64,000 bases of DNA from Jiangella alba. Lineage in GTDB: Bacteria > Actinomycetota > Actinomycetes > Jiangellales > Jiangellaceae. The stretch is taken from NCBI RefSeq assembly GCF_900106035.1, contig NZ_FNUC01000003.1, positions 992,001-1,056,000 on the forward strand, given 5' to 3'. The position numbers and the translations under genes were made by a program. Positions within the stretch are counted from its first letter, which is position 1; every line of letters starts with the position of its first letter. Shown here piece after piece: positions 2,068 to 43,526 of this stretch. A model generated the notes under the pieces. That model was given only the letters and a program-made list of their open reading frames with translations. It made no database searches and had not been told where the DNA came from.

Positions 2068-3399
2068 GTGACGGTGTCGATGCGGGTGATGTCTGCTGGG
2101 GCTGGTTACAGGTACCTGGCGCGGACGATCGCGGCCGCGGATGGGGATCGGTCGTTGTCGACGCCGTTGACGAGGTATTACGCGGAGTCGGGGACGCCGC
2201 CGGGGTGGTGGCTCGGCTCCGGGCTTGCGTCGTTGGGCGGCCCGCTGGCGGTAGGCGACCGGGTGAGCGAACCGCAGTTGCAGTTGCTGGTCGGGATGGG
2301 CCGTCACCCCTTGACGGGGGAGCCGTTGGGGCGTGGCCTGCCGGCGTTTCGTGGTGTCGCTGATCGGGTTCGTGAGCGGGTCGTGGAACTTGGCTCTGCG
2401 GTGGATGCAGCGGCGCGTGATCGTGCGGTGGCAGCGATCGCGGCGGAGGAGGCCGCGCGGGGGACCCGCCGGGTGGTGACGGGGTTCGATTTCACGTTCT
2501 CGTTGCCGAAGTCGGCGTCGGTGGTGTGGGCGGTGGCGGACGTGGGCACGCAGGCGTTGATCGCGCGGGCGCATCATGCCGCCATCGCGGATGTGGTGGC
2601 GTTCATGGAGCGCGAGGTTGCGGCGACCCGCATGGGCGCGGGCGCCGGTGATGGCGCGGTTGCGCAGGTCGACGTGACCGGGGTGATCGCGACGGCGTTC
2701 GACCACTACGACTCGCGGGCCGGCGACCCGCACCTGCACACCCATGTGGTGATTTCGAACAAGGTGCGCACGGTTCTCGATGATGGGTGGCGGGCGTTGG
2801 ATGGGCGGCCGATGCACGCGGCAACGGTTGCGCTGTCGGAGTTGCATGAGGCGCTGGTCGCCGACCATCTCACCCGTGTCCTGGGTGTGGATTGGGAGGC
2901 CCGGGAGCGGGGCCGGGACCGCAACCCGGAATGGGCGATCGCCGCGGTGCCGCCTGAGCTGGTGGCCGAGTTCTCGACCCGGAGCCGGCACATCGAGATC
3001 GAGACGGACCGGCTCGTCGACGCCTACGTCACCGAACACGGCCGGCGCCCGTCGCGGGCGACCATTTTGCGGTTGCGTGCACGGGCAACGCTGGCGACCC
3101 GCCCGAAGAAGGAGGTGCGCTCGCTCGCGGAGCTCACCGCCGGGTGGCGCACCCGCGCCGGCCGGGTACTCGGCGCCGACGCGACCAGCTGGGCCCGCAC
3201 GGTCACGACGCCGAGCGCGGCCCCGCTGGTGTTGCGTGCTGATGATGTGCCGCTCGAGGTGATCCGTGCACGCGGTGCGCGGGTGTTGGAGGTGGTGGGG
3301 AGAAGCGGTCGACGTGGCGGCGGTGGAACCTCTACGCCGAGGCCGCACGGCAGACGATGGACTGGCGCTTCGCCACCGCCGCCGATCGCGAAGCCGTGA
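2068..3399 (+). pseudogene. MobF/TrwC-type conjugative relaxase, N-terminal part (frameshifted)
   Basis: This is the relaxase domain of a TraA/TrwC-like protein, which nicks and covalently carries plasmid or ICE DNA in conjugation. The GTG start gives the family-typical N-terminus MTVSMRVMSAG. Catalytic tyrosine candidates are Y37 and Y38. The metal-binding triad is H222, H224 and H226 (PHLHTHVV). The frame is correct up to about codon 410. In a G run at 3297-3300 one base is missing relative to the expected frame, and the last 35 or so residues are out-of-frame. The family sequence resumes in another frame as EKRSTWRRWNLYAEAARQT. It may be a true mutation or a sequencing error. Confidence 0.85.
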
Positions 3400-5636
3400 T
3401 CGGGCTGGTCGTCGACGCCGCCGAGCACGGGTCGCTGCGGCTGACCCCGCCCGAGCTCGCGCCAACGCCGGCCGCGTTCCTGCGCGCGGACGGCACGAGC
3501 GTGTTCCGACCGAAGCATTCGACGGTGTTCTCCTCGCAGCAGCTGCTCGCCGCCGAAGACCGCCTGTTGCGTCGGAGCCGCGACGCCACCGGCCCGACAC
3601 TCGCGTTGCGCACCGTCGACGCGGCAATGCGGCGCCGCGGCCGCGGCCGACAGCGCCTGGACCCGCACCAGGTGGCCGCGCTCACCGCGGTCGCGGTGTC
3701 GGGGCGCGTCGTGGACGTGCTCGTCGGGCCGGCCGGTGCCGGGAAGACCACCGCCATGCGGGTATTGCGCCGTGCGTGGGAACGCGAGCATGGCCCCGGG
3801 TCGGTGGTCGGGTTGGCGCCGTCTGCGGCTGCCGCGGAGGTCTTGGCCGGCGAGCTGGGCATCGAGGCGGAGAACACGGCCAAGTGGTGGCATGACCACC
3901 AGGTCCGCGGCGTCGGATTCCGCGACGGGCAACTCGTCCTCATCGATGAGGCGTCGCTGGCCGGGACGTTGTCGCTGGATCGGATCACCGCGGCTGCCGA
4001 GCGGGCCGGTGCGAAGGTGCTCCTGGTCGGGGACTACGCCCAGCTCCAGTCCGTGGACGCGGGCGGGGCGTTCTCGCTGCTCGTCCACAACCGCGACGAC
4101 GCCCCGGAACTGCTCGACGTGCACCGGCTCACGAGCGTGTGGGAGCGCGCCGCGTCGCTGCAGCTGCGGCGTGGGCGCGCCGAGGTGGTCGACACCTACC
4201 TCGAGCACGACCGCGTCCTTGGCGGCGACACCGAGACCATGGTCGACGCCGCCTACACCGCCTGGCGCGCCGACACCCAAGCAGGCAAAGCCTCGGTCCT
4301 CATTGCCGAGGCCCGCCACAGCGTCACCGAACTCAACACGCGCGCCCGCGCCGACCTCATCCTCGACGGCTTCGTCAGGCCCGCCGCCGGAGAGGCTGAC
4401 TTGCATGACGGGACCGCCGCGGCCGCCGGGGACACGATCGTCACCCGCCGCAACGAACGCCGCCTGCGCACCCGCAGCGGCTGGGTCCGCAACGGCGACC
4501 GCTGGACCGTCCTCGCCGTGGCCCGCGATGGGGCACTGACCGTGCGCCGCGCCACCACCAACGGTCGACGTCGGCGCCGCGGCGGTGGTGCGGTGGTGTT
4601 GCCCGCCGGGTACGTCGCCGAGCACGTCGACCTCGGCTACGCCATCACCGCTCACCGCGCTCAGGGCATCACCACCGACACCGCGCACGTCCTCGTCCTG
4701 CCCACGACGACGCGGGAGAACCTGTACGTCGCGCTCACCCGCGGCCGGCACCTGAACATGGCCTACGTCGCCACCGACCAGCCCGACCCCGCCCACACCG
4801 ACCCACACCCCGGCGACAACCCCGACGCCATCGCCCGCACCGTCCTCTACGGCGTGCTCCAACACTCCGGTGCAGAACTGTCCGCGCACGAAACCCTCAC
4901 CACCGAACAGCAACAGTGGGGCACGATCGCCCAACTCGCCGCCGAATACGAGACCATCGCCGCCGCAGCCCAGCACGACCGCTGGGTCACCCTCATCCGC
5001 TCCTGCGGGCTCAGTGCCGTCGAGGCGGACGCCGTCATCACGTCCGACGCGTTCGGTGCGCTCACCGCCGAGCTACGCCGCGCCGAAGCCAACCACCACA
5101 ACGTCCACCAGCTCCTGCCGCGGCTCGCCCGGGCGCGTGGATTCCACGACGCCGACGACATCGCCGCCGTCCTGCACGCACGCCTCGCCCGCGCCACCGC
5201 ACACCCCGCCCGCACCCTCCGCCGCACGCAGCGGCGGCACATCGCCGGGCTCATCCCCGAAGCCGGCGGCAGGATCAGCCCGGACGTGTACGACGCCCTC
5301 GCACAACGCGGCGCCCTCATCGAAGCCCGCGCCGGCGCCGTCCTCGATACCGACCTCCACGACCGCCAGCCTTGGACCACCCACCTCGGCCGCCCACCGT
5401 CCGATCGTCGCTGCGCCGCGCACTGGCGACACCACGCCCGCACCGTCGCCGCCTACCGCGACCGCTACCACGTCACCACAGCGCACCCGCTCGGTGAGGA
5501 AGCGCAGCACGCCGCACAGAAGATCGACGCCGCCCGCGCCGCCGCAGCCCTCACTGCCGCACAACACCTCAGCGACCCGGGCCGACCCACGCGCGCCGGC
5601 GCCCCCGCCCAGGACGCCGGCATGGTCGCGCTGTAG
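3357..5636 (+). pseudogene. MobF/TrwC-type relaxase, C-terminal helicase part (frameshifted)
   Basis: This is the RecD/TraI-like helicase half of the same gene. True homology already begins near 3300, upstream of the ATG at 3357. Walker A is GPAGAGKTTAM at about residue 124. A motif II-like segment (VLIDEASLAG) and a motif III-like segment (LLVGDYAQLQSV) follow. The late motif GYAITAHRAQGIT and LYVALTRGR match the SF1 UvrD_C2 region. The remainder is an Ala/Arg-rich tail. Joined to the upstream part, the protein would be about 1190 residues, normal for actinobacterial MobF relaxases. If the frameshift is real, this ATG could still yield a helicase-only protein. Confidence 0.85.
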
Positions 5637-6805: not shown

Positions 6806-7447
6806 TCAGGAGGTGCCCACGGACAAAGTCGCGATTGGTCCGGCAAGGGCGTCACGGATGTGGTCGGCGGCCTGTTCGGGGCTGATTTGTGTGCAGTCGA
6901 GGCGCAATACTGGGTAGCCGGCGGCGGTGAGTTCCTCGGTGGCTTTGCGGTACAGGTGGGCTTCGAGGAACGAGCTGGCTGTGATGCGCTGGAAGCGGTT
7001 GTGCTTGCCGCGGGCGGCGAGGCGGCCAGTGATGACGTGAGGGTCTGCGTCGAGGACGACGGCGACGTCAGGGCGGTCGATGTCGGCGTTGATGCCACGG
7101 ATGAACGCGGGGTCGACGCCGTCGAACTGTTGCATAACCAGTCCGGAGAGTAGGTAGCGATCGGTGATCACGATCTTGCCGGTGGCCATGGCGGGCCGGA
7201 TCTCGTTCTCGAGGTGGTGGTAGCGGTCGGCGGCGTAAAGGCACGCCAGTGCAGGCCCGGTGACCTGTTCGGTGAGTTCGCGCGCCAGGGTGCCGATCGG
7301 ACCGCCGGAGGGTTCGCAGGTGAGGTGCGAGTTGTGGCCGTCCTGGGTGAGCAGGGCGTGGAGAGTGCGAGCGGTGGTGGACTTACCGATGCCGCTTGGG
7401 CCGTCGATCGTGACGAACAGTCCTGGCAGTGGGTCAGAAGAGGGCAT
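6806..7447 (-). CDS. Thymidylate kinase-like P-loop nucleotide kinase
   Basis: This 213-residue protein is of the dTMP kinase family, which phosphorylates dTMP or a related nucleotide. The start is MPSSDPLPG. The P-loop is G16-PSGIGKST, and the base-binding motif TDRYLLSG is present. It lacks the obvious features of the housekeeping tmk and is the last gene of a three-gene operon. Its start overlaps the exonuclease stop by 14 bases. The longer upstream frame is the exonuclease region out-of-frame. The substrate could be a nucleotide other than dTMP. Confidence 0.88.
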   Translation of the reverse strand: MPSSDPLPGLFVTIDGPSGIGKSTTARTLHALLTQDGHNSHLTCEPSGGPIGTLARELTEQVTGPALACLYAADRYHHLENEIRPAMATGKIVITDRYLLSGLVMQQFDGVDPAFIRGINADIDRPDVAVVLDADPHVITGRLAARGKHNRFQRITASSFLEAHLYRKATEELTAAGYPVLRLDCTQISPEQAADHIRDALAGPIATLSVGTS

Positions 7448-8009
7448 CGTCGGCACCGTCCTCGCCGAGCGATGTCGTGATCGCGTCCGCGCCGCCGGGC
7501 AGCTCGGCGAGGTAGACGAAGAGCCGGGCGCACATGGTGGCGTCGTATCCGGCGCGGTGAGACCGCAGTCCAGGGAGCCCGCCGGCGATTCCGAGATGGG
7601 CGGCCAGCAGGGTGAGCTTGTGCGACGGCGCATCGGCGAGAAGGGAGCGCGACAGCTTGAGGGTGTCGACGACGCCGGCGGCCGGGCCCCAGCCGGGGAG
7701 TTCGCGGGTGAGTACGCCGAGGTCGACGTAGGCTGCGTGAGCGACGAACACCCGGCCGGCCATCGCAGCAGCGATGTCGTCGGCGACCGCGCTGATAGGC
7801 GGCTGCGCCGCGACGTCACTGTTGCTGATCCCGTGGATGCGCCGGGCGATCTCGGTGATCGGCGCCGGGGGGCGTATTGCCCATGACACGGCTGGGCCGG
7901 CCACGCCGTGGTCGATCGGGGCGACGGCTACCTCGACCAGCGACGGCGGTCGTTGTCCGTTGCCTTCGACGTCGACGACGGCGTAGGAGCGGCTGGTCCA
8001 GTCATTCAT
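7434..8009 (-). CDS. DEDDh 3'-5' exonuclease, DNA polymerase III epsilon type
   Basis: This 191-residue protein has the RNase T/DnaQ exonuclease fold. Metal ligands are D13 and E15 (VVDVEGNG), the Asp of FVAHAAYVDLGVL, and the HRAGYDA motif giving the DEDDh histidine and last aspartate. It stands alone without a polymerase domain. The start overlaps the end of the radical SAM gene by eight bases, and its own end overlaps the kinase. The operon order suggests a nucleotide- or DNA-processing function shared by the three products. Confidence 0.88.
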   Translation of the reverse strand: MNDWTSRSYAVVDVEGNGQRPPSLVEVAVAPIDHGVAGPAVSWAIRPPAPITEIARRIHGISNSDVAAQPPISAVADDIAAAMAGRVFVAHAAYVDLGVLTRELPGWGPAAGVVDTLKLSRSLLADAPSHKLTLLAAHLGIAGGLPGLRSHRAGYDATMCARLFVYLAELPGGADAITTSLGEDGADDALF

Positions 8010-9168
8010 CGTTCGGGTTCCCTTCGCTCCAGCCGATGTCGGCGCGGCCGTGCCGGTCTCGGTGGTGGGGGTGGGCGACGTCGTGCATCTGGAAGGCGAA
8101 CCGGTGCTGCAGGTAGTAGCGCGCCTGCTCGCCGTTAAGGCCGGCCAGCACGGCAGCGCGGTCAGTCAGGCGCGTCACCTGGGCGCCCTGCCCGCCGGGC
8201 AGGCTTCGCGCCGCATCGACGATTTCGTGCGCCATCGGCCGGCGGTGTGCGGTGCGGCAGCGGTCGACCTGGCTGAGGGGGCAGATGTCGCATAGTTCGC
8301 GGATGCCGTAGTGGCCGTTGTAATCGGGGAGGTTGTGCGCGTAGGACACCGCACAGGAGGTCTTACGGAACAGCGCTCCACCACCCTGGGCCCTGAAAGC
8401 GGCCAGGACCCGCTGCTCCAGCGTCTCGGGGACGATCTTGCGTCGTGCGGTGCTGGAGTAGGGCTCGGTGAGTCCGTGCTGCCGGTAGTAGGCGGCGATC
8501 TCGTCCCGGTAGAACAACCCGGTGAACACGGTTGCGTCTGCGGCCCGGCTCAGCTTGACGGCGTCGGCGAGATGCGCGCTGGAGTCGTTGAGCCCCGGCA
8601 CGAGCGGCCGCCAGTACAGGATGGTGCGATAGCGGCGTGCGGGTCGCGTGCTGGCGACGTGTAGCGACCGGGCCGCGATGTGCGACGGGAACGGTTCGAT
8701 CGACGTGTCGGCGATCCCGGAGTAGGTGAAGAGCAGGGTAACTCTGATCTTGCGCAGGGCGTCGAGTCGGGTGCAGTCCTCGGGCTTGACCTGATGCCGT
8801 GTGATCACGAGGACGTGGTTGGTCAGTCGGCGGGCGTCCAGGTCGGCTAGGACGGCGAACAGGCTTTCCTTGACCCGCGGGAGGAAAGGGTCGGTCGCGC
8901 GGTTGAACACCTGGATCGGCGTGACGTGCGGCTGGAAGTACCGATGACCGACCAGCTCTGCGACGGCGTCGCCGTCGGGCATGATTGCCTTCGGAACTCG
9001 CTGGTCCCACACACCGTAGGTGTGCCTGATGCAGTACGCGCAGTCCAACGGACACCCGACCACATGGTTCAAGGACAGCCCGGACTTGCGATACTCCACC
9101 ACCTCGCGCGCGCGTTCAGGCAGCCGCGATATCTCGTCTGGCCGGAGCAACGGCACAAAGGTCTGCAT
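8002..9168 (-). CDS. Radical SAM protein, spore photoproduct lyase-like
   Basis: This 388-residue protein has the radical SAM cluster C39-x3-C43-x2-C46 (GCPLDCAYC) early in the chain. Its N-terminal layout (ends in VVEYRKSGLSLNHVV before the cluster) recalls spore photoproduct lyase-like proteins. A C-terminal CDICPLSQVDRC and an earlier TSC may hold a further metal site. The start at 9168 has GAGGTG six bases before it. ATG 9183, also with AGGTG, is possible. It is the first gene of an overlapping operon with an exonuclease and a dTMP kinase homologue. The true substrate is unknown. A DNA-lesion or nucleotide role is inferred from the neighbours. Confidence 0.82.
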   Translation of the reverse strand: MQTFVPLLRPDEISRLPERAREVVEYRKSGLSLNHVVGCPLDCAYCIRHTYGVWDQRVPKAIMPDGDAVAELVGHRYFQPHVTPIQVFNRATDPFLPRVKESLFAVLADLDARRLTNHVLVITRHQVKPEDCTRLDALRKIRVTLLFTYSGIADTSIEPFPSHIAARSLHVASTRPARRYRTILYWRPLVPGLNDSSAHLADAVKLSRAADATVFTGLFYRDEIAAYYRQHGLTEPYSSTARRKIVPETLEQRVLAAFRAQGGGALFRKTSCAVSYAHNLPDYNGHYGIRELCDICPLSQVDRCRTAHRRPMAHEIVDAARSLPGGQGAQVTRLTDRAAVLAGLNGEQARYYLQHRFAFQMHDVAHPHHRDRHGRADIGWSEGNPNDE

Positions 9169-9363: not shown

Positions 9364-10209
9364 TCAAGATGTCCGCCGGGTTTCTGCTATCGAGCGGGTG
9401 ATCAGCGCGCGTGCGCTGGCCTGGTAACTGGCTAGCTCCGCGTAATCTGCGAACAGGGCCACGTAGCGGGTGACCTCGGAGGGTTCGGCGGTGGTCACCG
9501 ACGCGGTGATGGTCTCTACGATTACGGTCTCGTTGTCGTAGATCGCGAAACCGTGTAGCGGAGCCTTGACGCTGAGCTGCCGCTCGAACGGGATGATCCC
9601 GAGACGCAGGCGGGAGGATCCAGCAATCCCGAGGAGCCTGTCGAGCTGCCCCTCCATGACCTCGGCGTCGCAGAGGCGGTACCGCAAGGCGGCCTCAGTG
9701 ACTATGAAGTGAAAAGACCTATGGCGGTCGTAGAGAATGCGTTGACGTTCCATGCGAGCGGCCACGGCCTCGTCGATGTCCTCGTGCGACCCTGAGTATC
9801 TTAGACCGCTGGAGAAGCGTGAACGTGCATACTCGGCGGTCTGGAGGAGGCCGGGAATAACGACGGTCTCCACGTTGTGCATGAAGGACAGGTCAGCCTC
9901 AAAGGTCGCAAAGGTTCGTTGGCCATGTCCCATGCCCTCGCGGAATTTTCGGCGGTGCTCGACATAATGGCCGTCGAGATTTCGAAGAGCGGCCACCAGA
10001 TCACCAGCCTGGTCGGGCACCCCGCACGCATTCGCCCATTGCGTAACGTCGGTGTCCGACGGTGTCTGTTTCCCGCCTTCGATCCGTGACACCTTGCTGG
10101 GCTGCCACGACAGCGACTCCGCAAGCTGTTTGCCGTTGAGGCCGGAATGCTTGCGCAGCTCGCGGAGCCGCTGGCCGAGCGTCGCTCGCTCCCGCTGGAA
10201 GGTGGTCAC
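9364..10209 (-). CDS. XRE-family regulator with DUF5753 domain
   Basis: This 281-residue protein has an N-terminal HTH (LGQRLRELRKHSGLNGKQLAESLSWQPSKVSRIE, given here in parts as LRELRKHSGL and WQPSKVSRIEGG) and a C-terminal DUF5753 domain starting near FATFEADLSFMHNVE, with the typical VVIPGLLQTAEYAR. Such proteins are abundant in actinomycetes and often pair with a small partner (DUF397 or DUF6879). The GTG start follows the TGA of the DUF6879 gene directly, so the two are co-translated. It probably regulates its partner. Confidence 0.92.
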   Translation of the reverse strand: MTTFQRERATLGQRLRELRKHSGLNGKQLAESLSWQPSKVSRIEGGKQTPSDTDVTQWANACGVPDQAGDLVAALRNLDGHYVEHRRKFREGMGHGQRTFATFEADLSFMHNVETVVIPGLLQTAEYARSRFSSGLRYSGSHEDIDEAVAARMERQRILYDRHRSFHFIVTEAALRYRLCDAEVMEGQLDRLLGIAGSSRLRLGIIPFERQLSVKAPLHGFAIYDNETVIVETITASVTTAEPSEVTRYVALFADYAELASYQASARALITRSIAETRRTS

Positions 10210-10746
10210 TCAGGTCACGCCGTGGACGGCGGCGTACTCCTCCCTCCTGACTGCGTTCGCCCAAGCGACGTCGCGCCATCGGCAGCGCTCGGCGATGCCT
10301 GCGGGGTCGTCCACTATCAGAATGTCATCGATCTTGCCGTCGTCGCCGAAACTGAAGACCGCAGCGAGCTCGGAGTCGAATAGCCAGTAGTCCTCGTCTG
10401 GCAGCGAGAGCAATTCAGCGCGGTCGCGCGCGAGGTAGCGGATGTCCTCGCCGGCTTCGACGTTCACGCGTGATACGTGCAGCGAGTAGCGCGCATAGTC
10501 GTTGAGTGGCTCCGTCACGACGCGAACGCGCGACATCTGTTTGCCGGCAGCTAGATCGGCACGACGCTGTGTGGTCCACGTGTCGAGAAACGAGACGTCG
10601 ACCGGTTCGCCGGCCAGGAACTGAGCCAACGCCCGTGGCGTGTAGGGCTCGTTGTACGCCTCGCGGGTCTCGAGTCGGAAGGCTGTGCGCCGATAGGTGA
10701 GAAACAGTTCACGGACGGCGTCGCGCGTGACGGACTCTGGCGTCAC
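10210..10746 (-). CDS. DUF6879 family protein
   Basis: This 178-residue protein has the pattern of DUF6879 (FRLETREAYN, SRVRVVTEPLNDYARYSL, DYWLFDSELA, RCRWRDVAW). The GTG start overlaps the upstream small gene's stop as GTGA. DUF6879 genes are common next to XRE-DUF5753 genes in actinomycetes. Their biochemical role is not established. It is soluble, with no signal peptide or membrane segment. Together with its neighbours it may form a regulatory or toxin-antitoxin-like set. Confidence 0.88.
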   Translation of the reverse strand: MTPESVTRDAVRELFLTYRRTAFRLETREAYNEPYTPRALAQFLAGEPVDVSFLDTWTTQRRADLAAGKQMSRVRVVTEPLNDYARYSLHVSRVNVEAGEDIRYLARDRAELLSLPDEDYWLFDSELAAVFSFGDDGKIDDILIVDDPAGIAERCRWRDVAWANAVRREEYAAVHGVT

Positions 10747-10946
10747 GCGCGATCGGCCAGGTCGAGAACGTCTGCCGGCACCTCGACGTAGAACTCGTCG
10801 TCGGCGACGTTGCGGAGGTCGGCGATCGCTTCCGGATCGGTCACGAGCTTGCCCTGGACCACGTACGTCCCGCGGTCCGTCGCGTACAGCGCAGGACAGC
10901 CGTCGACGTCCGAGCCGCCGGTCTTGCCGAGGTATCGAAGTCTCAT
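10743..10946 (-). CDS. Small hypothetical protein, 67 residues, first of the DUF6879 operon
   Basis: This compact protein starts MRLRYLGKTGGS and is preceded by GGGAGG at a suitable distance. It contains a short beta-rich region (ALYATDRGTYVVQG) and an acidic C-terminus (EFYVEVPADVLDLAD). Similar small proteins precede DUF6879 genes in actinomycetes. The stop overlaps the start of the DUF6879 gene. The operon promoter should lie in 10947-11135, where no clear motif was identified. Confidence 0.75.
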   Translation of the reverse strand: MRLRYLGKTGGSDVDGCPALYATDRGTYVVQGKLVTDPEAIADLRNVADDEFYVEVPADVLDLADRA

Positions 10947-11135: not shown

Positions 11136-11672
11136 TCACTGGCGGATGATCGAGTACAGTAGGGAGTCGCGCCAAGCGCCGTTGGTGAAGACGTGATCGC
11201 GTAGTCGCCCTTCGTACTCCATGCCGACGCGCTTCACAACGGCGATAGAGGCAGCGTTCTGCGGGCCGATGGCGGCTGTGATCCGGTGCAGATCGAGGAC
11301 GTCCCACGCGAAGCGGATCACCGTGCCGACGGCGTCGGTCGCGTAGCCGCGTCCCCAGTGATCGGCCGCGACGGCATAGCCGATCTTGGCGGCGCGAACC
11401 CCGGAGTGGGCGAGCCGGATAAAGCCCACAGGGAGCGGGCCGGCCTGCGGTTGGATCGCAAGGTAGTACTCGGCGCGAGGATCTGCCTTGGCGCTGCTGA
11501 GCATGTGGGTCAGCATCGTGCTCGCCTGGCCGCGGCTGCGGCTGTCGAAAGAGAGGAAGGTCGTTACGCGGTCGTCACCTACGACGCCGGCGATGGTGTC
11601 GAGGTCGTCGGGTGCGAACTCGCGCAGGATGACCTGTGATCCGGATAGGTTCAGCGGGTAGGTGTCGGTCAT
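11136..11672 (-). CDS. GNAT N-acetyltransferase, RimJ/RimL-like
   Basis: This 178-residue protein is of the Acetyltransf_3 type. It shows LREFAPDDLDTIAGVV at the start, the acetyl-CoA loop GYAVAADHWGRGYATDAV and the late motif NAASIAVVKRVGMEYEGRLRD. It is likely a protein or small-molecule acetyltransferase, and the substrate cannot be predicted. The start overlaps the stop of the upstream TPR regulator by four bases, so the two form an operon. Confidence 0.9.
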   Translation of the reverse strand: MTDTYPLNLSGSQVILREFAPDDLDTIAGVVGDDRVTTFLSFDSRSRGQASTMLTHMLSSAKADPRAEYYLAIQPQAGPLPVGFIRLAHSGVRAAKIGYAVAADHWGRGYATDAVGTVIRFAWDVLDLHRITAAIGPQNAASIAVVKRVGMEYEGRLRDHVFTNGAWRDSLLYSIIRQ

Positions 11673-12964
11673 CGCTCGATCGCGGTCAGTGCAGTGCGGC
11701 GGAAGACCTCGATCTCCTCTTGAAGCTCGGCCGCTTCAGACGATCGGATACCGGAGTTCATCAGTGCTCCATGCACGCGATCTACCGAGGAGGCGATGCC
11801 ATGGATTCTCTGATCGGGCGGCAGCTCGAGCACGGGCCGGACGGCCTCGATCGCGCCGCCGAGCTCCTGACGGCGAATGCGTGCGAGGGCTAGGTCGCTC
11901 ATAGCGCCAGCCTCATCGCCGAAGGCCCAGTCGTCGTCGTGTGCGGCGTAGGCGGTCACTGCGGCTTCACCGTATCGCTCAGCGTCGGCTCCGGCCGATG
12001 GGAACCAGGCGAGAGCATCGGCGGCGTAGTACAACTGGCGGCTGCGGGAGAAGGTGCAGATGCCACCGAGATCGTCGAGATCGTCTTGTTCCGCGCGGTC
12101 AAGTGCGGACTCCGCCCGTCCGATGGCAGTGCGCGTTTCGTCGATGCGCCCGAGAGCGGCCCACGCTCGGGCCTCGCTTGCCGGGAGCCAAACGGCGGCC
12201 GTCGAGCCTGCACGTTCGGCGAACTCGGCGCCCCGCTGGGCGTAGCGCACGGCGTCACGTGGGCGTCCAGACCAGTAGCTGAACTGGCTTTCCAGTCCAT
12301 TGATCCATGCGCGCAGGCCGTCGTGGCCGGCCTGCTCGGCGCAGAGGAGCGCGGTGCGCGCATGAGTCATGGCCGCTGGAGTACGTCCCAGGTCGTGTGA
12401 GGACTTGGCGACCAGGCCCGAGGTGACCGCGGTCAGGAAGTAGAGCCGACGTAGGTGCATCGGGTGCTGCTGCGGGGTCTCGATCAGGTCCATCAGGTCA
12501 CCTTGGACCTTGATCAAACTGGGGAGCAGCTGAAGGACCGGCCGCTGCGGGTAGTCGGTCGCGAGCGATCGAACCTCGTCGTAGATCTGCTCCATCGCTT
12601 CGTCGGTCAGTCGCGAGCGCGACCGCTCACCGAAGGCTCGTGCGCGTTCAGCCGCCATGTCGACCTCGTCTCCCAATCCGGAGTGTCCGCCGGTTGCATC
12701 GGTTGGATCCGAGGGAGGAGGTGACAGCAGCTCGTCAACGGACCGATTGAAGAGGAGCCGGAGCACTCGTCGCGTTGACGCACTCGGCGTGCGCCCGCGG
12801 GTCTCGGCGCGTGCCATCCGCCCAAGGTGGCGCGGGCTCACCGTCGCACTGATCCCCGCCCTCTTCGCGGTGACCTCGAACTCCTGAGCGGCGTCTTCGA
12901 AGGTCCAGTCCTTCTGGGTGATGAGCCAATGAAGGAGAGTCGCAGGCCGCAGCTGCTCCGCCAC
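11669..12964 (-). CDS. Large transcriptional regulator with N-terminal HTH and TPR-like helices
   Basis: This 431-residue protein starts at a GTG with GGGAGGTG seven bases upstream. The N-terminus (LLHWLITQKDWTFEDAAQEFEVTAK) recalls actinobacterial HTH proteins without a standard XRE sequence. From about residue 110 the chain is helical with TPR-like pairs (RTALLCAEQAGHDGLRAWI, RYAQRGAEFAERAGS, RTAIGRAESALDRAEQDD). Such Streptomyces-type regulators bind a ligand or peptide through the TPR part. It is coupled to the GNAT gene. Three direct repeats lie about 70-120 bp upstream of the start. Confidence 0.8.
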   Translation of the reverse strand: MAEQLRPATLLHWLITQKDWTFEDAAQEFEVTAKRAGISATVSPRHLGRMARAETRGRTPSASTRRVLRLLFNRSVDELLSPPPSDPTDATGGHSGLGDEVDMAAERARAFGERSRSRLTDEAMEQIYDEVRSLATDYPQRPVLQLLPSLIKVQGDLMDLIETPQQHPMHLRRLYFLTAVTSGLVAKSSHDLGRTPAAMTHARTALLCAEQAGHDGLRAWINGLESQFSYWSGRPRDAVRYAQRGAEFAERAGSTAAVWLPASEARAWAALGRIDETRTAIGRAESALDRAEQDDLDDLGGICTFSRSRQLYYAADALAWFPSAGADAERYGEAAVTAYAAHDDDWAFGDEAGAMSDLALARIRRQELGGAIEAVRPVLELPPDQRIHGIASSVDRVHGALMNSGIRSSEAAELQEEIEVFRRTALTAIER

Positions 12965-13033
12965 GTCGTCACCTCCCATCCCTCTACGAGCAAGCATCGC
13001 GCTCCAACCCTGTCGCGGAAACCGATGTCACTG

Positions 13034-40381: not shown

Positions 40382-40600
40382 TCGACCGGACCCCGTGTCA
40401 CGCGGTGCGCGTCATCGGGTTCGGACCAGAACGCCATGACGTCGGCCACTGTTCCGGTCGGGCGATGGGCAGACCTCGTGGTGACGATCAGCGACCAGGG
40501 GCCGGTACGGGTGGCCGACACCAGTACCAACATGTGCGACACGCGAGCTGCGGTCGGAGCCGGTCAGTCGGGCCGTAGGCCGAACGATCAATCCAGCGGT
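40300..40600 (+). pseudogene. Out-of-frame C-terminal remnant of second GH95 protein
   Basis: The frames VPFQWQPNARDATVQGSAA (from about 40310) and TVPVGRWADLVVTISDQGP (from about 40445) look like the rest of a carbohydrate-binding tail. The frame switch sits near 40302. Several indels follow, so this tail is lost or was lost by sequencing error. Confidence 0.5.
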
Positions 40601-40724
40601 GCCGCCCGTCGTGCGGCGGCCAAGAGTGTTGGGAGTCACGGATGAAGATCCATCCGGGCTCTGCCGGTCGGCGGCGGGGCCCACGATTGTCGATTCGCAC
40701 GGGAATGCGGACAGGAGAATCCAG

Positions 40725-43526
40725 ATGAGGTGGAGCAGGCGGAAGCAGGCACGCACCGCAGTGGTCGGGATGGCGATCGGGATGCTCGCGGTGCAGTCGA
40801 TCGTTGTCGAGGGGGCGGCGAACGCAGCTGTCCGGGAGAAGCCGCCTTTCCAGCCCGAGATCGAGATCGCGATCCCAGACCGCATCTTCACCGAGACGCC
40901 CTTCGAACTCGCCGTCACCATCGACGCGGGCGATCGGGCCCTACCGCGAAGCTCGGTCGAGGTGGCGCTGCCGGACGGCTGGACAACGCCGGACGACACG
41001 GTGTCGCTGCGGCCGCTACCACGCGGCCGATCGACGCGTGTGACGTTCGACGTGACGCCGTCTGCCACGGTCGATTCCTCCTCGACCGTCGATGTCACGT
41101 TGGAGTCCGTGCGATGGGCCTGGCACGAGTCGGCCGACGTAGCCGTCGAGCCGTGCCTCGTGCCGGAGCCGGTCGATCCGCGGCTGAAGGTGCCCGAGTC
41201 GGCCTTTTCACGTCGCCTCGAATGGGTCGGACCGGTCGTCTACGACCCCGGATACACGCTCTGGGGCGCGAGTCCGGTGGTCGACGACGAAGGGCGCTTC
41301 CACCTCTTCATCGCACGCTGGCCCGAGCGCAACGTCGATCCGGCCTGGCGCCGGTCGAGCGAGATCGCCCACTATTTCGCCGACAGCCCGGAGGGACCCT
41401 TCGAGTTCAGCGATGTGGCGTTGCAGGGAACCGGCCAGGAGGGTGACTGGGATCGCTACGCCCCGCACAACCCGGAGATCCGACGGTTCGGCGACAAGTA
41501 CGTGCTGCTCTACATCGGCAACAGCGACTACCGGCAGCCGCCGCATCCGAACAACCAGCAGATCGGCATGGCCGTCGCCGACAGTCCCTACGGCCCCTGG
41601 GAGAAAATCAACCCAGACTCCGAGCAGCCGGGGCTGCTGATCTCGCCGCAGGCTGGTCATTTCACCGAGGGCAAGATGGTCACCAACCCCACGATGATGA
41701 AGCTCGGTGACACCTACTTCGTATACTTCAAGACGCGCGTCGGCGCGAAGCTCGTGTTCGGCGCCGCCACCAGCAAGAACCTCACCGGGCCCTACCAGCT
41801 TCTCGAGGACCCGCTCACGCCCGAAGGCGTGACGATCGAGGACGCGACCGTGTTCACCTCCGACGGCCAGGTCCAATTCCTGACGACGGACAACCACGGC
41901 GACGTCACCGGGATCGTCGGTGGCGGCGCGATGTTCTTCTCCGAGGACGGCTACACCTTTGACCTCGACCGCACCAGCCTCGGCTATCGGAGAGTCCCCT
42001 ACTACTACGAGGCGTACGGCGACTTCCCGATCCGCAAGATCTACGGGCCGGATCCGAAGTTCGAGCAGCCGAAGGTCCTCACGGTGGACGGCAAGGCGCG
42101 CTACCTCTACGCCTCGTCGGGGTGGAACGTGACCGGTCAGGACCGCACCGTCATCCACCTGCTGAGAGTGGCCGACCACCCGGTCGCCCGGGGCGACGAG
42201 CGGGGCACCGGCTGCAACCTGCTGCGCAACGGCGACCTCGAGGCTGGGACCCGCGCCGGCAACCCGCCGGCCGCCGCCGACTGGGGGGTTCCTGCCACCG
42301 AGCTCAACCTCCCTGGCTGGGAGGCGGGCAGCGAGGTAGTCGTCGCTGCGAGCTCCGCAAGCGGTAAGGCCGGCTACGGCACCGCGAGCACGACGATCGA
42401 GTCGCCGAGCAAGGACACCGTGGTGGGATTCAACTCGAACGAGTCGACGGCGCCACCGACGACGTCCTCGATCCGGCAGACGTTCGTGACGACACCGGGG
42501 CAGACGTACCGGCTCTCCTTTGACCTCGGCGCACTCTCGTCTCCAGCGAAGCCCATGGGCCTGACGGCGCAGCTGTTCGACGGAGCGATCGACAGCGGTG
42601 ACCCGGCAGCGCCCATGGCAGAGGGCCGCGTCACCGTCGAAACCAACGGGTTCGGTCAGCGGCTACGGGACGTCGTGACGTTCACCGCCACCTCCGACCG
42701 GGCCACGCTCGTGCTGTTCGAGAGCAGCGCGACCACCAATTCGGGCAACGTCGCGGTCGACAACGTCTCCGTCCGGGCGGTGCTGCAAGTTGACGACACC
42801 GGCCCGGAGCTGGCCGCACCGACCGGTGTGACGCACCATCTCGCCGACGGCAAGATCGTCCTCAGCTGGGCGTCCGTGTCCGGCGCCGACGGCTACGCCG
42901 TGTCACGGATGCGTTGCGATCGGCCCATCATGGTCGCGGTCGCCCACGGACGGACGTCAGTGGCACTCGGCGCATCCGAAGACGCGGGCGGGACGTACAC
43001 GGTCGCTGCGTTCGTCGACGGGCAGATCGGTCCGGCGTCGCAGCCGTACGAGGTGCCGACGGATCCGGCGCACGAGGTGCCGACGGATCCGACGCCGCGG
43101 CAGATCGTGGTGGACGACTCCGACCTGGGGGATGCCTGCCCAGGAGAGCCTGTTCCCTACATGGAGACCGGAAGCTGGTTCCCGAGCGGCCTGCCTGGGT
43201 GGGACGGCGGACCGTCTCGCTACAGTGGCGCCATCGGGTCGACTGCGACCTGGACACCGACCATCGCCGGCCCGAGCGACTACCTCGTCGAGGCATGGGT
43301 CCCCGCCCACGCCACAACGACCACCTCCGCGACGTACACCGTTCGACATGCTGACGGCGAGTCGACCGTTCTCGTGGACCAGCGATCCCGCGGAGGTTGG
43401 GTGCCCCTCGGCACCTGGAGGTTCGCGGCCGGCACCGACGGCTGGGTGCGCCTCGACGTGAACAACTCGTCGGTCCACCGCCTCGACGCCGTACGCTTCA
43501 CTCCGACCGAAGGAGCAGGCCGATGA
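40725..43526 (+). CDS. Secreted multidomain GH43-like glycoside hydrolase
   Basis: This 933-residue protein begins MRWSRRKQARTAVVGMAIG (signal peptide, AGGAGA before it). Domains in order: NEW3-like Ig module (about 45-140, FELAVTIDAGD), a five-bladed beta-propeller of GH43/GH117 type (about 165-500; LWGASPVVDDEGRFHLF, NPEIRRFGDKYVLLYIG, EDATVFTSDGQVQFLT), a DUF642-like galactose-binding module (LLRNGDLEAG), an Fn3-like module (APTGVTHHL), and a C-terminal golvesin/Xly-type carbohydrate-binding domain (IGSTATWTPTIAGPSDYLVEAW). The last two are linked by EVPTDPAHEVPTDP. The substrate is unknown. It is likely an arabinosidase, xylosidase or alpha-1,3-L-anhydrogalactosidase-type enzyme in fucan or plant glycan breakdown. 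Confidence 0.85.
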   Translation: MRWSRRKQARTAVVGMAIGMLAVQSIVVEGAANAAVREKPPFQPEIEIAIPDRIFTETPFELAVTIDAGDRALPRSSVEVALPDGWTTPDDTVSLRPLPRGRSTRVTFDVTPSATVDSSSTVDVTLESVRWAWHESADVAVEPCLVPEPVDPRLKVPESAFSRRLEWVGPVVYDPGYTLWGASPVVDDEGRFHLFIARWPERNVDPAWRRSSEIAHYFADSPEGPFEFSDVALQGTGQEGDWDRYAPHNPEIRRFGDKYVLLYIGNSDYRQPPHPNNQQIGMAVADSPYGPWEKINPDSEQPGLLISPQAGHFTEGKMVTNPTMMKLGDTYFVYFKTRVGAKLVFGAATSKNLTGPYQLLEDPLTPEGVTIEDATVFTSDGQVQFLTTDNHGDVTGIVGGGAMFFSEDGYTFDLDRTSLGYRRVPYYYEAYGDFPIRKIYGPDPKFEQPKVLTVDGKARYLYASSGWNVTGQDRTVIHLLRVADHPVARGDERGTGCNLLRNGDLEAGTRAGNPPAAADWGVPATELNLPGWEAGSEVVVAASSASGKAGYGTASTTIESPSKDTVVGFNSNESTAPPTTSSIRQTFVTTPGQTYRLSFDLGALSSPAKPMGLTAQLFDGAIDSGDPAAPMAEGRVTVETNGFGQRLRDVVTFTATSDRATLVLFESSATTNSGNVAVDNVSVRAVLQVDDTGPELAAPTGVTHHLADGKIVLSWASVSGADGYAVSRMRCDRPIMVAVAHGRTSVALGASEDAGGTYTVAAFVDGQIGPASQPYEVPTDPAHEVPTDPTPRQIVVDDSDLGDACPGEPVPYMETGSWFPSGLPGWDGGPSRYSGAIGSTATWTPTIAGPSDYLVEAWVPAHATTTTSATYTVRHADGESTVLVDQRSRGGWVPLGTWRFAAGTDGWVRLDVNNSSVHRLDAVRFTPTEGAGR

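Follow-up and report, generated by a model that had tools for sequence, protein, structure and literature searches.

What would a radical SAM protein, a DEDDh 3'-5' exonuclease and a dTMP-kinase-family nucleotide kinase do together, when their genes overlap in a single operon of Jiangella alba? The stretch of DNA analysed (hereafter the window) spans 64,000 nucleotides, and the features around the operon are as follows:

9168-8002, minus strand: radical SAM gene (388 aa), with CX3CX2C (CPLDCAYC) at C39/C43/C46 and C-terminal C272/C293/C296/C304
8009-7434, minus strand: DEDDh 3'-5' exonuclease gene (191 aa); RNase_T, PF00929, E 5e-15
7447-6806, minus strand: dTMP-kinase-family nucleotide kinase gene (213 aa); Thymidylate_kin, PF02223, E 2e-30
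9364..10209, minus strand: XRE-type regulator with DUF5753, upstream of and co-oriented with the operon; family present in 36 loci
10210..10746, minus strand: DUF6879 protein, upstream neighbour conserved in the window's clade (24 loci); gene start set by visual comparison with the homologous region
10743..10946, minus strand: conserved small protein of 67 aa, found upstream in 24 loci of the window's clade; likeness to members of family 4 read off the sequences

Translations and domain searches confirmed the original prediction of three overlapping minus-strand genes: the radical SAM and exonuclease genes share 8 bases (8002-8009), and the exonuclease and kinase genes 14 bases (7434-7447). 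The XRE/DUF5753 gene is a conserved neighbour in the window's clade, and its product is the probable regulator of the operon. Further upstream lies the gene of an NsdA-family TPR regulator (11669-12997), which is followed by a GNAT acetyltransferase gene (11136-11672). The predicted location in a mobile island is plausible from an integrase core (29-919) and TraI-like helicase domains within the open reading frame 3357-5636. Elsewhere in the window, a tRNA-Arg (gcg) called by ARAGORN at 40972-41066 overlaps a long open frame (40599-43526) and may be a false call.

The radical SAM protein and the exonuclease

The window's exonuclease belongs to the RNase_T fold family and has the DEDDh residues: D13, E15, H151 and D156 (L003 numbering) are near-invariant among relatives, and the middle D of the motif was read in the window's own sequence.

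The radical SAM protein had no match in Pfam, NCBIfam, PHROGs, PADLOC or the PDB sequences, and its assignment to a known family was therefore dropped. None of the viperin or radical SAM profile models in PADLOC, Pfam, NCBIfam and PHROGs matched it, nor did the spore photoproduct lyase (SPL) family models of Pfam and NCBIfam, and a radical SAM profile searched against the PDB sequences found no viperin. The AlphaFold2 model of the protein (pLDDT 92.1, pTM 0.91) was matched best in Foldseek, though weakly, by spore photoproduct lyase 4fhc (E 7e-5, TM 0.47, 12% identity, rmsd 7.1), followed by SkfB and PFL-activating enzyme, with viperin at TM 0.41. By these searches, the protein belongs to neither the viperin nor the photoproduct lyase family. 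Of its earlier description as a photoproduct-lyase-type enzyme with added C-terminal cysteines, the distant fold likeness and the cysteines stood, and closer kinship was not supported. The N-terminal CX3CX2C was kept in 62 of the 63 rows of the alignment, and C272, C293, C296 and C304 were invariant in 63/63 relatives. C39, C43 and C46 are the predicted ligands of the radical SAM cluster, and the four C-terminal cysteines most likely bind a second (auxiliary) Fe-S cluster.

Distant radical SAM relatives on Streptomyces plasmids retain a C...CP..Q...C pattern. On one of these plasmids, pFRL6, such a relative lies among genes for dCTP deaminases, a cytidine deaminase, a nucleotidyltransferase, a glycosyltransferase and a HAD hydrolase, with MazG nearby (L121:1788-9325), possibly a nucleoside-antibiotic-like cluster. 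NikJ/PolH-type octosyl-acid kinship via another distant relative (L120) was considered as well; it is not claimed, because the enolpyruvyl transferase encoded there is by sequence a plain MurA (best matches MurA, NikO far lower).

Conservation of the set and of its kinase position

When 84,980 species genomes were scanned for the radical SAM protein, 117 relatives were returned, of which 80 were kept, all from genomes of other species. In 79 of these 80 loci the radical SAM gene was immediately followed by the exonuclease gene, and in 68 the third gene, close downstream, encoded a nucleo(t/s)ide kinase (dTMPK-type in 32, AAA_28-type in 36), with an aldo/keto reductase gene intervening in four loci of the dTMP-kinase group; a kinase was not detected in 12/80 and the exonuclease was absent from 1/80, gene calls in unannotated loci and contigs being heuristic. 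Typical gene overlaps were 4, 7, 8 or ~20 bases. Hosts comprised Actinomycetota, Myxococcota, Acidobacteriota, Nitrospirota, Melainabacteria and Pseudomonadota, and a Nostoc plasmid carried the radical SAM and kinase genes with no exonuclease listed. Because the arrangement is conserved across phyla, it is not a product of chance. Distances among the radical SAM proteins and among the exonucleases were also correlated (r = 0.91; 0/2000 permutations), a Mantel correlation that cannot tell co-function from shared descent. Thus the three families are not scattered independently among relatives, and the view of the three enzymes as one unit was borne out. Within groups, however, the module was rare, as for a mobile accessory module: it was found in 0/295 other sampled Actinomycetota genomes and 0/397 other sampled Pseudomonadota genomes. 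On a Streptomyces tendae plasmid the copy is truncated: the C-terminal portion of its radical SAM match falls in an open frame annotated as exonuclease (L100:8013-9089), and the module there is possibly decayed or fused.

The third gene of the window is assigned by profile models to the dTMP kinase family (PF02223, 106.6 bits against a cut-off of 27; TIGR00041, 110.6 bits against 83.25). It is not the essential tmk of the genome, since a separate Thymidylate_kin gene (E 2.5e-48) is located at C4:1533570 of the same assembly (G000), and a housekeeping role was ruled out on this ground. The TMK fold family also includes CMPK2, which acts on dUMP, dCMP, CMP and UMP. In the radical SAM tree, the dTMP kinase was confined to one actinomycete clade (24 rows, support 100/99) that includes the window, whereas the proteobacterial, myxobacterial and most other outer branches carried an AAA_28 kinase, whose model (pLDDT 91.5) had thymidylate kinases, deoxynucleoside kinases and NadR as nearest folds. 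The third position of the operon has thus passed from one type of nucleo(t/s)ide kinase to another, with the AAA_28 kinase as the probable ancestral third gene. This swap suggests that a nucleo(t/s)ide kinase activity, not one particular gene, is what the module seems to need. Weak PADLOC matches of the kinase to PDC-M51B and VakA were set aside.

Substrate clues and genomic neighbourhoods

A clue to the substrate came from genes that accompany the module in some hosts. A thymidylate-synthase-like gene and an NDP kinase gene lay upstream in 18/80 loci and in all six Streptomyces plasmid copies read, and several of these loci also had an aldo/keto reductase downstream. In the Streptomyces copies, the thymidylate-synthase-like protein is a full-length homologue (E 1e-74; 39-48% identity) of MilA/BcmA, the CMP 5-hydroxymethylase of mildiomycin and bacimethrin; the window's locus has no such gene. 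The preference of MilA for ribose and cytosine is set by K133, A176 and D186 (PMC5175136), of which K133 and D186 were kept in 24/24 MilA-like copies and A176 in 21/24 (G in three). Because these residues are kept, the likely substrate moved from thymidine to cytidine or another pyrimidine ribonucleotide, and the sequences point to a modified pyrimidine, probably a cytidine ribonucleotide. On the other hand, Tyr218, which binds ribose in MilA, was kept in none of the 24 copies, where N, G or C takes its place (e.g., L088:7892-8905), so that the inference of CMP is not secure and the sugar of the substrate may itself be altered. The thymidine pathway originally proposed was set aside, as CMP is what the only substrate clue indicates and the AAA_28 kinase, rather than a dTMP kinase, was probably the ancestral third gene.

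In several alphaproteobacterial copies the fourth gene encodes an HD hydrolase, which could possibly dispose of a toxic triphosphate in the manner of ThmC, the self-resistance triphosphatase of the 4'-thiothymidine cluster. HD-domain proteins with a weak dGTPase match were located at L090:12304-13740, L084:12319-13749, L097:12302-13738 and L098:12302-13732. Two further gene types were observed in actinomycetes: LanB-type lanthipeptide dehydratase genes near the module in four loci (L028, L037, L047 and L066), and PCMT-type methyltransferases near the module in many loci of the window's clade.

The suggestion that a nucleotide-modifying set acts against foreign DNA fits the neighbourhoods of the relatives. 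On eight non-actinobacterial plasmids, neighbours of the module strongly matched IetA, Gabija, dGTPase, CBASS cyclase and E1-E2, Shedu and Lamassu: the module adjoined IetA, Gabija and dGTPase in A. vitis, CBASS in S. meliloti, and Shedu in two rhizobia, one of which also had Lamassu. Seven of these plasmids were also sampled at half a replicon's distance from the module; in this small comparison, only AbiEi-, Fic- and helicase-type matches were among the matches listed. A TcmP and DUF5131 pair was found directly behind the module at L090:13805-15949, near CBASS on pSymA, and a DUF5131 protein also near one actinomycete copy.

The module was moreover present in seven viral contigs, although the radical SAM protein had no match in 50,697 records of named phages. 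In a Mu-like prophage (L111:5012-10236), cargo on the opposite strand consisted of SIR2, HerA and then, 22 bases on, the radical SAM, exonuclease and kinase genes, which looks like a defence cargo site; in another viral contig, genes for a DNA methylase and a DpdJ-like helicase preceded the module. In 20 loci of the window's clade, by contrast, PADLOC matches near the module were sparse (one Shedu, one PD-Lambda-5 and scattered others), so that the linkage to defence islands is mainly a feature of alphaproteobacterial plasmids and prophages (few loci). Thus an antiphage role is probable in proteobacteria, and by relatedness only may be extended to the actinomycete clade of the window. Genes around the Streptomyces copies carry the annotation 'natural product biosynthesis'.

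Proposed mechanism, alternatives and known systems

A scheme can be proposed that starts from a pyrimidine nucleotide, in which the radical SAM enzyme, equipped with a second iron-sulphur site, would rearrange or replace one position of the base or sugar. The kinase encoded by the third gene would phosphorylate the product from NMP to NDP, an NDP kinase would complete the triphosphate, and an invading phage would have its polymerases poisoned by this triphosphate. As self-protection, the DEDDh exonuclease would clear the analogue from 3' ends in the producer itself, or else it would recycle the analogue, and in the Streptomyces copies the MilA-like enzyme, first or later, would hydroxymethylate cytosine. 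Substrate, chemistry, exonuclease role and antiphage action are what we infer from the gene set. We judge the chances about even that, taken jointly, the three genes form the core of a module spread by horizontal transfer and the product of this module is a modified pyrimidine nucleotide that serves as an antimetabolite against phage.

In actinomycetes, a nucleoside antimetabolite aimed elsewhere is a strong rival. The same chemistry could yield a nucleoside antibiotic or signalling nucleoside that is exported or released against competitors, with kinase, exonuclease and accessory hydrolases serving biosynthesis and self-resistance. Several observations are in keeping with such a pathway: i) the Photorhabdus cluster thmABC, which makes 4'-thiothymidine, consists of just a radical SAM enzyme, a nucleoside kinase and a triphosphatase conferring self-resistance (PMC12691670); ii) MilA itself comes from the mildiomycin pathway; iii) the Streptomyces copies lie among regulators and DUFs of 'natural product biosynthesis'; iv) the distant relatives on pFRL6 are accompanied by deaminase and glycosyltransferase genes. 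Yet no exporter was conserved with the module, the proteobacterial copies are embedded in defence islands and in the cargo site of a prophage, and the core is widespread across taxa but rare within them, as expected for mobile defence; we therefore hold the pathway for possible rather than probable. As to where the product would act, the chance seems about even for action inside the cell against phages, and action outside against competitors is a tentative second.

The fold likeness to spore photoproduct lyase, the best match of the radical SAM protein, could also indicate DNA or nucleotide repair, in which the radical SAM enzyme would reverse a damaged pyrimidine as a photoproduct lyase does, the exonuclease trim and the kinase salvage the nucleotide, a task that an exonuclease and a dTMP kinase would suit. 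We consider this improbable: the likeness is weak and has no counterpart at family level, the set is mobile and absent from the other sampled genomes of Actinomycetota and Pseudomonadota, and repair offers no role for a CMP hydroxymethylase of the MilA type. Phages with hypermodified thymidine carry genes for a thymidylate-synthase-family enzyme, a dNMP kinase and a radical SAM protein, and a modified dNTP might likewise be incorporated into the DNA of the plasmid or phage that bears the module, as protection against restriction, in keeping with the location on mobile elements. That the radical SAM protein went unmatched in the phage records, that no DNA-modifying transferase was conserved with it and that most MilA-like residues indicate ribonucleotides make such hypermodification very unlikely. 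An antiphage antimetabolite thus remains the preferred reading.

In the literature and family libraries searched, no description of the module was found, in agreement with the expectation that the set was new; two older base-modification surveys of the Aravind group may mention it. Spore photoproduct lyase (SplB) shares the radical SAM fold as the best PDB match, but differs in its C-terminal part, and the module's protein has 12% identity to it and matches no SPL model. Antiphage systems found by DefensePredictor include thymidylate synthase, dNMP kinase, 5hmdU kinase and NMAD and are a validated precedent for nucleotide-modifying enzymes in defence (PMC13092281); the main text of that paper mentions no radical SAM enzyme, whereas the module has one. 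Similar in gene content is thmABC, likewise a minimal set of radical SAM enzyme, nucleoside kinase and nucleotide-acting hydrolase, although its third gene encodes a triphosphatase where the module has an exonuclease (PMC12691670).

The overall logic would resemble that of viperin with CMPK2, in which a radical SAM enzyme and a TMK-family kinase lead to a chain-terminating NTP. Prokaryotic viperins and the module share a radical SAM protein beside a thymidylate-kinase-fold kinase in an antiviral context, a radical SAM fold with N-terminal CX3CX2C and, probably, a pyrimidine nucleotide as substrate. To our knowledge, viperin is the only well-known radical SAM route to an antiviral nucleotide. 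If the proposal is true, the module is a second, independent route and the logic arose more than once; new chain-terminating nucleotides would be possible as drugs or tools, a function would be assigned to an unannotated radical SAM family of many phyla, and the survival of a producer in the presence of its own terminator could be tested directly. The module's radical SAM protein is unrelated to viperin at family level, viperin being a distant fold match, and the module differs further by the extra C-terminal cysteine set and a near-obligate DEDDh exonuclease. We suggest, with somewhat less than even confidence, a new radical SAM family that leads to an antiviral nucleotide independently of viperin, together with an analogue-clearing exonuclease and an interchangeable nucleotide kinase.
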